A stretch of 64,000 nt of DNA. Source: Proteocatella sphenisci DSM 23131. GTDB taxonomy: Bacteria; Bacillota; Clostridia; Peptostreptococcales; Filifactoraceae. The stretch spans positions 1 through 64,000 of the forward strand of contig NZ_AUID01000003.1 of the NCBI RefSeq assembly GCF_000423525.1, written 5' to 3'. The notes beneath the pieces are model-generated. The model did not search any database. It had not been told where the DNA came from and saw nothing but the letters and a program-made list of their open reading frames with translations. Made by a program: the position numbers and the translations under genes. Of this stretch, positions 3,329 to 46,588 are shown piece after piece; the stretch's first letter is position 1, and each line of letters begins with the position of its first letter.

Positions 3329-4261
3329 TTAATATAACAATAGATTCTTTTGTTCTACTTTCCCTGCAGCAACCTCAGCCAAAGATCCAACTTCCTTCTC
3401 AACAATTCCCAATAAGTACTGTAAGAAATCATCCCTCAAATCACTTCTTCTAAGAGCTGTCTCCACAGTTGCTTCTAGGAATCCTTGTTTGTTACCTACA
3501 TCGTATCTTTTGCCGATGAAGTCATAAGCGTACATATCTTCTTTAAGTGCCAGCTCTTTCAGTGCATCCGTCAGCTGAATCTCTCCACCTTTACCAGGCT
3601 TCGTTTTCGCTAAAATATCAAAGATACCTGGATTGATGATGTATCTTCCCAGAATTGCAACATTAGATGGTGCTTCATCTACCGCAGGTTTCTCAACTAG
3701 GCCCTTCACGGTGTAAACTCTATCCGATACACGCTCTCCATCAACTATCCCATATTTACACACATCTTCATCTTTAACGGTTTGAACACCTAACACGGAT
3801 GTCTGGTATTCATCATAAACATCAATCATCTGCTTAAGACATGGCGTGTCCTCATTATATACAACATCATCACCAAGCATAACTGCAAATGGTTCGTTGC
3901 CTACAAAGGTCTTTGCACAGTAAATAGCATGTCCTAACCCCTTGGCTTCCTTCTGTCTAATATAATGGATATCGACAAAATCTGTAATGTCTCTAACCAC
4001 CTTCAATAGTTCTTCATTGGCTTTTTTCTCAAGTTCTAGTTCCAATTCAACATTTCTATCGAAATGGTCCTCGATTGCTCTCTTGCTCTTGCCTGTAATT
4101 ATCAGAATCTCTTCAATTCCACTATCAATTGCTTCTTGTATAATATATTGAATTGTAGGTGTATCTACAATTGGTAACATTTCCTTTGGCATAGCTTTTG
4201 TAGCTGGTAAGAATCTCGTTCCAAGGCCAGCTGCTGGTATGACTGCTTTGCGTACTTTCAT
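3329..4261 (-). CDS. galU: UTP-glucose-1-phosphate uridylyltransferase (first copy)
   Basis: Makes UDP-glucose from UTP and glucose-1-phosphate in the cytoplasm. The nucleotidyltransferase signature VIPAAGLGTRFLPATKAMPKE opens the protein (quoted in part: AAGLGTRFLPATKA), and VEKPAVDEAPSN and GGEIQLTDAL follow as in all GalU proteins. I chose the ATG at 4259-4261, 10 bases after GGAGG; a TTG three codons upstream touches the binding site. It is the penultimate gene of the capsule operon, next to ugd, which uses its product. A second galU lies at 49479-50342. This copy carries an extra C-terminal tail of about 25 residues. Confidence 0.95.
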   Translation of the reverse strand: MKVRKAVIPAAGLGTRFLPATKAMPKEMLPIVDTPTIQYIIQEAIDSGIEEILIITGKSKRAIEDHFDRNVELELELEKKANEELLKVVRDITDFVDIHYIRQKEAKGLGHAIYCAKTFVGNEPFAVMLGDDVVYNEDTPCLKQMIDVYDEYQTSVLGVQTVKDEDVCKYGIVDGERVSDRVYTVKGLVEKPAVDEAPSNVAILGRYIINPGIFDILAKTKPGKGGEIQLTDALKELALKEDMYAYDFIGKRYDVGNKQGFLEATVETALRRSDLRDDFLQYLLGIVEKEVGSLAEVAAGKVEQKNLLLY

Positions 4262-42863: not shown

Positions 42864-43544
42864 TTATTTGGCATCAAAAAAAAGATGAAAATTGCTATAC
42901 CTGTTTAGGGAATTGCGGTCCTGCTTTACGAAGTCCCAGGTTTGCTGGTAGTTTCCTTTGACTGCGAACTCGGGATTATTTATAAATTCTATAAATTCTT
43001 GTTCTCTTTTGTAAAACATGTCTGCAAATTCTTCGGCCTGTATCCTTTTTTTGCGATCTGGCATGTCTATATCGCCGTGGAGGACGTGCTCGAGATTGCA
43101 GGAGAAATAATATACATTATATTTTATGCCCAGTATGGTTGGCTGGTCGCAAAGTACGTCTAGTATCTCTCGTTTTTTTTCGTTGCGCTCTTGTACAAAT
43201 TTTACGCTTTTGGCGTATATATGTTTTGTGGTATATTTGAGGCCACCGGCTTTGACTCTTTCTATGTGTTTATCGTCTATATAGGCTCCGTCTGAGTCTA
43301 CCAGGTGGACTATCTGTGATATGTCTGTTCTTTTTAGAAAGTTGTTTTTGCAGTACCTGCTTATTCTTGAGGCCATCTTGTCTACGGCGTTTTTCTGGTT
43401 TGTAGCGCCATCGCTGGTCACGTCTCCGTTTATTATATAAAATCTTACTTCCTGATTTTTTATTAGCTTGCTGATTATTTCTCCCAGTGAAATCTTGTCG
43501 GTGATGCCTTCTACTATAAAAAGCATTACTTTTTTAGTCTTCAT
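42864..43544 (-). CDS. TOPRIM-like partner of the neighbouring ATPase, defence candidate
   Basis: 226 residues. KKVMLFIVEGITDKISLGEI puts a TOPRIM-type glutamate at E12 with D16. HLVDSDGAYIDDKHI places D83 and D85, the DxD that with the glutamate would bind Mg2+ in TOPRIM or OLD-like nucleases. The C-terminus is helical and charged. It overlaps the ATPase gene by 11 bases, so the two are made together. The pairing of an ABC-type ATPase with a small TOPRIM protein resembles OLD-family and AriA/AriB-type (PARIS) anti-phage systems. I do not recognise a named family for this protein; TOPRIM is my reading of the motifs. Confidence 0.6.
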   Translation of the reverse strand: MKTKKVMLFIVEGITDKISLGEIISKLIKNQEVRFYIINGDVTSDGATNQKNAVDKMASRISRYCKNNFLKRTDISQIVHLVDSDGAYIDDKHIERVKAGGLKYTTKHIYAKSVKFVQERNEKKREILDVLCDQPTILGIKYNVYYFSCNLEHVLHGDIDMPDRKKRIQAEEFADMFYKREQEFIEFINNPEFAVKGNYQQTWDFVKQDRNSLNRYSNFHLFFDAK

Positions 43545-44847
43545 GGTTCATTCTCCCTGCTCTTCTGAAGGCTCTTGCAATCTCAAAGTGGTCTGTCTGT
43601 TCGTAGAGGTTTTCTTTTTGGCCTCCCAGGCTTATGCACCTGTAGTATTTGCTTCTCAGGCTTTCTTTTTCGTTTCCGCCCCTCAACCTGTAGTACCTGT
43701 TTTTGGGGTTGGTGGTAGTAAATATTAGAGAGTCTGCGCTGAGTTTTTCGAGTGGTCTGAGGTTGTGGGAAGTAAATATGAGCTGGCCTCTTGCGTTTTG
43801 GGTAAGGATTTCGAGGAGTTCGCCAAGCAGGTATTCAAATATGCCGGAGTCTAGTTCGTCAACTACAAGGCACACTGAGGGATCATTATACATCTTTATC
43901 ATAGACCCCAGCATGTATATGATTTTTTTTATTCCGCCCGATTCGTATCTTAGAGGGATTTCCAAATCTTGCCTTTTTGACACCATCTCTATTCGCACTC
44001 CACTGGTCCCATCTGGACTCAGCTGGGGTCCATAGTTTTTTATGTCTACTTCCAGCCCTGGTATTATTGCGCTTATGACTATATTGACCTGGGCCAGAGT
44101 TTTTTTCATAGTTTCAAAGGCCTCAAGACTAACCAGCATAGGTTTCATGGCTGGCATGTCTTCTTCTTGAATTTTATAATCGTGGTCCATTATAAAAAGC
44201 TTTTGTCTGGCATATTGTCTGAGGGCAAATATTATATCTCTATACTCTACAAAGTCATATGAATTTTTGAGGATTTCTCGGGTTTCGTCGCTGAATATGA
44301 ATGAGGTCCTGTTTTTTTGTGACATTTTTTTTGAAACGAGGAGATCTACATTGTTTTCAGGACTTTTGTGATTGAGCCTGTTGAGGTTTTTGATCGGCCT
44401 AAATGCGTAGCCTTTTTCATCTGCATCAAAGTCTATTATGGTCTCTTTTTGCCTTGGTTCATGAGCTTGTTTTATCTTGTATGAGAGTTTTTCTTTATTT
44501 ATTGTCAAATCCCCATTTTCTGTTCTTGTAAGCTGGGCCTGATAATACAGTGTGCTCTCATGCTGGTGGAGCTGGAGGTCAAATTCAAAGCTCAGCTCTG
44601 AACTGACTGCTGATTTATGGATTTTATCTGCTGCGTTTTGGGGAAGGGGATTCCCGCTGAGTATGTGTTTTAGTATAGCCAGGGCTTCTACTACAGCGGT
44701 TTTCCCAGACCCATTTTGACCGTATATTCCTATTATCTCGGATTCCATATCTTGGCTGAGCTCTGAATGCGACCCAGGAAGATTTATGGTTCCGTTTTCG
44801 ACATTTTTGAAGTTACTTAGTCCTATCTTGCGGATTCTTATTATTAT
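43534..44847 (-). CDS. AAA/ABC-type ATPase, RecF/OLD-like, defence candidate
   Basis: Starts RIRKIGLSNFKNVENGTINL and has Walker A IIGIYGQNGSGKTAVVEALA. Near the end come an ABC-like Walker B CLVVDELDSGIFEYLL and the switch LIFTSHNLRPLEKL, the layout of AAA_15/AAA_21 ATPases of OLD-type and similar systems. The start is a puzzle: the only ATG in frame (44926-44928) lies inside hydA with no binding site. GGGAG at 44855-44859 sits 7 bases before AUA codons at 44847, 44844 and 44841, so an AUA start is my best guess. It is fused in transcription to the TOPRIM-like gene downstream and follows hydA directly. Confidence 0.75.
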   Translation of the reverse strand: MIIRIRKIGLSNFKNVENGTINLPGSHSELSQDMESEIIGIYGQNGSGKTAVVEALAILKHILSGNPLPQNAADKIHKSAVSSELSFEFDLQLHQHESTLYYQAQLTRTENGDLTINKEKLSYKIKQAHEPRQKETIIDFDADEKGYAFRPIKNLNRLNHKSPENNVDLLVSKKMSQKNRTSFIFSDETREILKNSYDFVEYRDIIFALRQYARQKLFIMDHDYKIQEEDMPAMKPMLVSLEAFETMKKTLAQVNIVISAIIPGLEVDIKNYGPQLSPDGTSGVRIEMVSKRQDLEIPLRYESGGIKKIIYMLGSMIKMYNDPSVCLVVDELDSGIFEYLLGELLEILTQNARGQLIFTSHNLRPLEKLSADSLIFTTTNPKNRYYRLRGGNEKESLRSKYYRCISLGGQKENLYEQTDHFEIARAFRRAGRMNHED

Positions 44848-44848
44848 T

Positions 44849-46588
44849 TTAATACTCCCTTTCTTTATATGTTGTATGAAGGATTTTGTGGGCCTTGTGG
44901 CTGCCTGGCTCCCCAAAATATTCCTCATAAAGGGTCTTTATTACCGGGCTCTCATGAGATTTTCTAAGGGGAAGGTTTTTGTCTTCTTCGTAGAGGGCTT
45001 TTGCTCTTTCGGTTTTTAAATCTACAAAGTTTCTTACTGACGCGGGTTGTACTGGCTGTCCTCCGCCGTTGATGCAGCCTCCCGGGCATCCCATTATCTC
45101 TATAAAGTGGTAGGTTTTCTTGCCTTCTCTTATCTCGTTTAAAAGTTGTCTGGCGTTTGCAAGGCCGCTCGTTACTGCCACGTTTACTTCGAGATCGCCT
45201 ACTTTATATGTTGCTTCTTTGATTTCTTTGGTTCCCCTTACTTCTGTAAAGTCCAGATTTGTCAGCTCTTGTCCTGTAAGTTTTTCTACTGCGGTCCTAA
45301 GGGCTGCCTCCATTACTCCGCCTGTTGCTCCAAATATGGCTCCTGCTCCTGTTGATACTCCAAGGGGATCATCAAAGTCGGTGTCTGCAAGTTTTTTGAA
45401 CTGGATTCCTGCTCTTTTTATCATTCTTGCAAGTTCTCTTGTAGTTATCGCTATGTCTATGTCATAAACTCCGGCTGCGGACTGATTGTCTCTTCTGGCC
45501 TCGAATTTTTTGGCAGTACATGGCATTACTGAAACTACTACTATATCATGCGGATCGAGGTTGTTTTTTTCTGCGTACCAGGTCTTTACTACTGCTCCAA
45601 ACATCTGCTGTGGTGACTTGCAGCTTGAAAGGTTTGGTATAAAGTCATGGAAGTTATGCTCGCAGAATTTTATCCAGCCTGGGGAACATGAGGTAATGAG
45701 TGGAAGCGGGCCTCCGTTTTGGATTCTGGTAATTAGTTCTTGTGATTCTTCTATTATGGTAAGGTCTGCGGCTATGTCTGTGTCATACACTCCTGCAAAT
45801 CCAAGGTGCTTGAGGGCTGTTACCATCTTGCCTTTTACGTTGGTTCCTACTGGCATTCCAAATGCTTCTCCAAGGGTAACTCTTATGGATGGAGCCGTAG
45901 CTACTATAACGTGTTTGCTCTCGTCTGCAAGTGCTGCCCATACTTTGTCGGTATCGTCTTTTTCGGCGATTGCTCCTGTTGGACATACTACTATGCACTG
46001 GCCGCATGATACGCAGTCGGTTTTTCCAAGGTCTTCTTCGAATGCGCATCCTATATGAGTCTTGAATCCTCTTTCATTAACTCCTATAACTCCTACACTT
46101 TGAAGTTTGCTGCAGGCTGCCACGCATCTTCTGCACAGTATACACTTGTTGTCGTCTCTGTACATATGAATCGCTGAGTCGTCTGTCTTGTATACCTGAT
46201 TGTGGCCGTCATATTTGGCTTCATCGTCTACCTTGAAGTCATGACAGAGCTTTTGGAGCTCGCAGTTGTCACTTCTTATACAGGAAAGGCAGCTACGGTC
46301 ATGTGTTGAAAGTATAAGCTCAAGGGTTATTTTTCTGGCCTTAAGCACTTTTTCTGAATGGGTTAATATATCCATGCCTTCTGAAAGCGGATGTACGCAT
46401 GATGCTACAAGGTTTTTTGCTCCCTTTACTTCTACTACGCATATTCTGCAGGCGCCTATTTCGTTTATTTCTTTGAGATAACAAAGGGTTGGCACCTCTA
46501 TGTTTATCTGATTGCAGGCCTGCAGTATGGTAAGTCCCTTGGGAAATTGATATGATATATTATTTATTTTAACGTTTACGGTACTCAT
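44849..46588 (-). CDS. hydA: [FeFe] hydrogenase catalytic subunit HydA, trimeric bifurcating type
   Basis: 579 residues: [2Fe-2S] domain (C36, C47, C50, C64), His-Cys [4Fe-4S] site (H96, C100, C103, C109), two [4Fe-4S] motifs (149-159, 192-202), then the H-cluster motifs TSCSPGWIKFCEH (C301), VSVMPCTAKKFEARR (C357) and EIMGCPGGCINGGGQP (C501, C505) and the small-subunit-like tail. The Ser in TSCSP is a known natural variant of this subgroup. With HydB and HydC it uses NADH and reduced ferredoxin together to form H2. The gene is 26 bases below hydB. Its last codons hold the binding site of the ATPase gene. Confidence 0.96.
   Translation of the reverse strand: MSTVNVKINNISYQFPKGLTILQACNQINIEVPTLCYLKEINEIGACRICVVEVKGAKNLVASCVHPLSEGMDILTHSEKVLKARKITLELILSTHDRSCLSCIRSDNCELQKLCHDFKVDDEAKYDGHNQVYKTDDSAIHMYRDDNKCILCRRCVAACSKLQSVGVIGVNERGFKTHIGCAFEEDLGKTDCVSCGQCIVVCPTGAIAEKDDTDKVWAALADESKHVIVATAPSIRVTLGEAFGMPVGTNVKGKMVTALKHLGFAGVYDTDIAADLTIIEESQELITRIQNGGPLPLITSCSPGWIKFCEHNFHDFIPNLSSCKSPQQMFGAVVKTWYAEKNNLDPHDIVVVSVMPCTAKKFEARRDNQSAAGVYDIDIAITTRELARMIKRAGIQFKKLADTDFDDPLGVSTGAGAIFGATGGVMEAALRTAVEKLTGQELTNLDFTEVRGTKEIKEATYKVGDLEVNVAVTSGLANARQLLNEIREGKKTYHFIEIMGCPGGCINGGGQPVQPASVRNFVDLKTERAKALYEEDKNLPLRKSHESPVIKTLYEEYFGEPGSHKAHKILHTTYKEREY

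Follow-up and report, generated by a model that had tools for sequence, protein, structure and literature searches.

The window, a 64,000-nucleotide stretch of Proteocatella sphenisci DSM 23131 (contig NZ_AUID01000003.1, positions 1 to 64,000), carries two overlapping genes on its minus strand. The upstream gene encodes a Rad50/RecF/AbiLi-type ABC ATPase, a predicted sensor and restrainer, and is taken here as 43534..44847, the conserved part of an open frame with its stop at 43534; the second, an ATG-start ORF of 226 aa at 42864..43544, encodes a small TOPRIM-like protein, a predicted nuclease effector. By their ORF coordinates, the 3' end of the ATPase gene and the 5' end of the small gene share 11 bases (43534..43544, minus strand), exactly the two-gene arrangement described in the first-pass annotation, and this overlap likely reflects translational coupling of the two genes. 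The pair is flanked downstream by an amidase gene and upstream by hydA (44849..46588, minus strand), an ORF for an Fe-only hydrogenase subunit that is a host neighbour outside the module. The hydA junction (44840..44862, minus strand) holds the TAA stop of hydA at 44849-44851 and an AGGGAG purine run, followed by ATT and ATA codons at the N-terminus of the ATPase. When ATG, GTG or TTG was sought near the conserved ATPase N-terminus (44847), none was found there; the nearest in-frame starts, an ATG at 44928 and a TTG at 44916, both lie within hydA. Judging from the sequence, the ATT/ATA codons are a possible non-canonical start of the ATPase.

Numbered from 44847, the ATPase has a Walker A motif (GIYGQNGSGKT, G40-T50), a signature-like motif (ESGGIKK, residues 302-308), a Walker B motif (VDELD, residues 329-333) and a His switch (TSHN, residues 359-362), all four of which were kept across 42 homologues. 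Pfam placed the protein with AAA_21 (3.8e-13) and AAA_15 (7.4e-10), with SMC_N also matched, while its best PADLOC match was AbiLi (1.4e-28, PDLC02335) and the next AriA (7e-17); all 42 aligned homologues matched both of these PADLOC models. AbiLi and AriA are the sensors of the AbiL and PARIS systems. An AlphaFold2 model of the ATPase (pLDDT 85.1) matched Rad50 and the retron/Septu protein PtuA in the PDB, Rad50 being closest, and the profile libraries placed the ATPase closer to AbiLi and AriA than to RecF. At the N-terminus (window 44840-44930), the ATPase of one homologue, L027, has Met at the position of the window's ATA codon (M-I-R-I-K vs I-I-R-I-R).

We analyzed how consistently the two genes occur together by scanning 84,980 species genomes, in which 293 relatives of the small protein were found and 80 kept. 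An ATPase gene lay directly upstream on the same strand at 79 of these 80 genome loci, the only exception being L099, whose locus begins at the end of a contig. The association of the two genes, which are kept together through about 290 homologues, is thus beyond chance. Furthermore, the distance matrices of the two proteins correlated with r=0.84 (0/2000 permutations), a correlation that owes something to shared inheritance. Within the same order, AbiLi–RloB pairs formed a separate set, and there was no swapping of partners between the two sets in the loci scanned.

No family name could be given to the small protein: for the window protein, Pfam, NCBIfam and PADLOC returned only noise and PHROGs no match, in keeping with the earlier remark that this partner could not be named. 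Across 65 homologues, E12, G13, D41, D83, D85, K166 and N218 are invariant. They include the two motifs of the small protein that had been noted alongside those of the ATPase, V11-E12-G13 and D83-x-D85, and E12, D83 and D85 are putative TOPRIM catalytic positions. To place the family, we compared its profile by hhalign with a profile of 13 RloB proteins gathered within the window's order. The two matched at E 1.2e-6 (probability 90.7, score 48.5), with the VEG and DxD motifs in register, such that E12, D83 and D85 aligned to RloB E33, D102 and D104; the reversed RloB profile scored 19.6, and the best of 30 column shuffles 18.8, vs 48.5 for the real comparison. Below threshold, individual members of the 65 matched DUF4276 (24/65, best 7.5e-5), Toprim (18/65, best 2.2e-4) and OLD-like_TOPRIM (10/65, best 4.1e-3). 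An AlphaFold2 model of the small protein (pLDDT 92.6, pTM 0.89) had an RloB-like viral protein as its top match in a BFVD structure search (E 0.027, probability 0.87). In the PDB, a fold search gave a mixture of assorted alpha/beta folds, all with E > 0.01 and among them the PARIS complex 8ux9 (E 0.06), and a sequence profile search gave integrin I-domain noise only (E > 0.03). No relatives were found in a scan of viral contigs with the single small protein as query. The small-protein profile gave no signal against five heterogeneous DUF4435 loci, and RloB failed there too; since these were only five heterogeneous loci, one of them wrongly an ATPase ORF, that comparison was uninformative. Of the families named earlier as checks for this protein (TOPRIM, DUF4435 and RloB), RloB was recovered by profile comparison, a match to DUF4435 was absent and the PDB fold search was weak. 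Taken together, the controlled RloB profile match, the recurrent weak family matches and the RloB-like top match in BFVD bear out the TOPRIM-like reading, and it is well supported, though not proven by structure, that the small protein has an RloB-branch TOPRIM domain.

We next compared the pair with known systems that join an ATPase to a TOPRIM protein. AbiL of Lactococcus lactis (AbiLi ATPase and AbiLii/RloB) likewise consists of two genes, the ATPase first and a TOPRIM-type partner second; the ATPase of the pair has its best match in the AbiLi model, and the small protein is a remote relative of RloB. However, the AbiLi model gives true AbiLi-RloB pairs about 230-320 bits and the present family 95-105, about one third, and conversely the ATPase profile of the pair gives AbiLi about 40-57 bits and its own members 500-690. 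Searched at a max_evalue of 10, PF13707 (RloB) was not listed for the window small protein, and the AbiLii model was reached by only one of the 65 members (E 0.018). PARIS (AriA and AriB/DUF4435) shares with the pair the separate ATPase and TOPRIM genes, the match to the AriA model and the presence of the AriB complex among the weak fold matches, whereas the small protein has 226 aa vs about 300, the mutual relationship is remote, and DUF4435 was again not listed for the window small protein at a max_evalue of 10. OLD classes 1-3, including Gabija GajA, combine a Rad50/RecF-type ATPase with TOPRIM chemistry as well, yet GajA is a fused ATPase-TOPRIM protein where the window pair is split in two genes; neither a GajB helicase nor a reverse transcriptase was found beside the pair. 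The PADLOC candidate HEC-01 (ATPase and HEC-01B) is matched by the ATPase through HEC-01A (1e-10) and weakly by a few small-protein members through HEC-01B (best 2e-4), but the window small protein has no HEC-01B match and the scores are far below family level. Of the resemblance to PARIS or to split OLD systems suggested at first, the separate genes hold, the AriA match is weaker than that to AbiLi, and the family tests for PARIS and AbiL fail, in the former case on DUF4435. On the best reading, which is one of analogy, the pair would work like AbiL and PARIS but belong to neither, as the RloB and DUF4435 models both fail on the window protein.

The distribution of the pair was patchy. It was found in 13 of 148 related genomes at E 1e-3, two of the 13 by short weak matches only. 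Plasmid copies were present in Ruminococcus, Lysinibacillus, Paenibacillus and Cetobacterium, that of Lysinibacillus adjoining conjugation genes and that of Cetobacterium an IS256 transposase, and one copy lay on a Clostridioides phage record. The P. sphenisci genome itself has a second, diverged copy, 36% identical, on contig 5 (G000:C5:2298-4390, L103). The genes flanking the pair were mixed across loci, and many copies, including the window copy and L103, lay outside defence islands. As to the place after hydA, four family relatives have polyphosphate kinase, S-layer-type or two-component genes there (names read from translations) and no pair, and only two other carriers have a hydrogenase-like match nearby, a distant one (25–26%). 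A housekeeping partnership with hydA is rejected on these grounds, and because the four relatives lack the pair at this site, the window copy is best seen as having been inserted after hydA and not as an operon partner, in line with the insertion downstream of the hydrogenase operon that had been proposed from the window. The L103 copy has a cobalamin-type gene cluster on one side and a gene for a pyridoxal enzyme on the other. A stable chromosomal copy beside PNPase was seen at 10 Lacrimispora/Hungatella-type loci (L061, L066, L073, L075, L077, L079-L082 and L085), which suggests long-term retention of the PNPase-adjoining copy in that lineage.

In the closest group, about 51% identical to the window copy, the pair sits in a conjugative element, flanked by a conserved 213-aa gene on one side and a VirB4/TraG-type transfer ATPase gene on the other. 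We examined this slot in genomes of the window's order (L210-L215 and L188-L209). Carriers of the pair at this site include Fusibacter, Petromonas, Alkaliphilus, Sporosalibacterium and others, and the downstream flank gene is 86–97% identical between genera. In five loci (L198, L199, L200, L206 and L207) the slot is empty and the two flank genes are adjacent. Where other genes fill it, six fillers were examined, outside of which stand those of L216 and L217, and all six had PADLOC matches: SIR2/PDC-S25 (2.7e-86), Tmn (8.8e-70), IetA and IetS (1.1e-96 and 5.3e-118), KwaB and KwaA of Kiwa (7.4e-16 and 2.6e-13), DruE of Druantia (6e-175, in a slot whose far edge was not reached) and SduA of Shedu (1.2e-12). 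The slot thus serves as a site for interchangeable defence genes in this family of conjugative elements, and its sharing is the strongest functional evidence for a defence role of the pair. A literature search for a slot between the 213-aa gene and the VirB4-type gene found no paper describing it. Beside the known defence genes in the slot are genes with no Pfam match at L214:5188-7089 (-), L215:3668-4951 (+) and L216:6254-7360 (+), of which those of L214 and L215 also have no PADLOC match and that of L216 was scanned in Pfam only; these are candidates for further defence components.

The conservation of the pair, its covariation, the TOPRIM relationship, its mobility and the sharing of the defence slot are all computed results. 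Because this slot is shared with other anti-virus systems, the pair probably serves bacteria as a defence system similar in kind to AbiL and PARIS. The pair is not fixed beside hydA, as a housekeeping neighbour would be, and its association with defence extends from the slot, with its six known or candidate anti-phage systems, to copies on plasmids and on a phage; the candidacy as an anti-phage system put forward at the outset is supported by this association, and we infer the protection itself. We consider it probable that the two genes form a defence module of the abortive-infection type, carried on mobile elements. Its parts are assigned by analogy with PARIS, in which the TOPRIM tRNase AriB is sequestered by an AriA hexamer until a phage trigger frees it (PMC12409363), and with the C. 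algidicarnis and S. agalactiae AAA:TOPRIM pairs, which neutralise toxicity in E. coli (PMC10440598). By this analogy, the ABC ATPase would be a sensor and restrainer that assembles on ATP, keeps its TOPRIM partner inactive and switches state when it meets an infection cue. The small protein would be a metal-dependent nuclease with E12 and D83/D85 as metal ligands, which, once released, would cleave nucleic acid (tRNA, other RNA or DNA) and stop the growth of the infected cell. Restraint, the trigger for release, nuclease activity, the target and protection against phage are all inferred in this way. Whether the pair also constitutes a distinct ATPase–TOPRIM type of defence, with an effector family all its own, mainly clostridial spread on conjugative elements whose transfer cluster holds a dedicated, interchangeable slot for defence genes, and a trigger and target unlike those of AbiL and PARIS, we regard as evenly balanced.

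Carriage on plasmids and conjugative elements, together with obligatory pairing, would also be expected of a toxin-antitoxin or plasmid-addiction pair, in which the ATPase neutralises a TOPRIM toxin and stabilises the carrier element, phage defence being secondary or absent; AAA:TOPRIM pairs do act as toxin-antitoxin systems in E. coli (PMC10440598). However, the slot alternates with Kiwa, Druantia, Iet, Tmn, SIR2 and Shedu, which are classed as defence and not addiction, and stable chromosomal solo copies exist, so that we hold this reading to be unlikely. That the pair sits among the transfer genes of a conjugative element, and on conjugative plasmids, could instead mean that the cargo lets the element exclude rivals, defending against competing plasmids and conjugative elements rather than phages. 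This is improbable given the phage-borne copy and the other slot occupants, which are mostly known for anti-phage activity.

A role in DNA repair or recombination, with the ATPase binding DNA ends and the TOPRIM protein processing them as in RecF-RecR or Rad50-Mre11, would suit an ATPase model whose nearest PDB match is Rad50, and RecR also has a TOPRIM domain. Such a role is very improbable for a pair that is patchily present, carried by mobile elements and housed in a slot common to defence systems, and whose ATPase is nearer AbiLi and AriA than RecF in the profile libraries.

The abortive-infection-type defence module favored here is uncatalogued in PADLOC v2, Pfam and NCBIfam. Since the pair goes unnamed in these resources through about 290 relatives, it seems that a part of clostridial immunity has been overlooked. 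With this pair the ATPase–TOPRIM group, to which the PARIS tRNase AriB belongs, gains a separate branch of effectors; this permits the direct question of whether different TOPRIM effectors act on different nucleic acids, and the slot in the transfer cluster offers a place to seek further defence systems. Elsewhere in the window, a long polysaccharide/glycosyltransferase-type block spans 3332-27819 with a G+C of 0.28-0.41, lower than that of the hydrogenase region (0.40-0.45), and UDP-glucose pyrophosphorylase-like genes occur twice, at 3332 and 49482.
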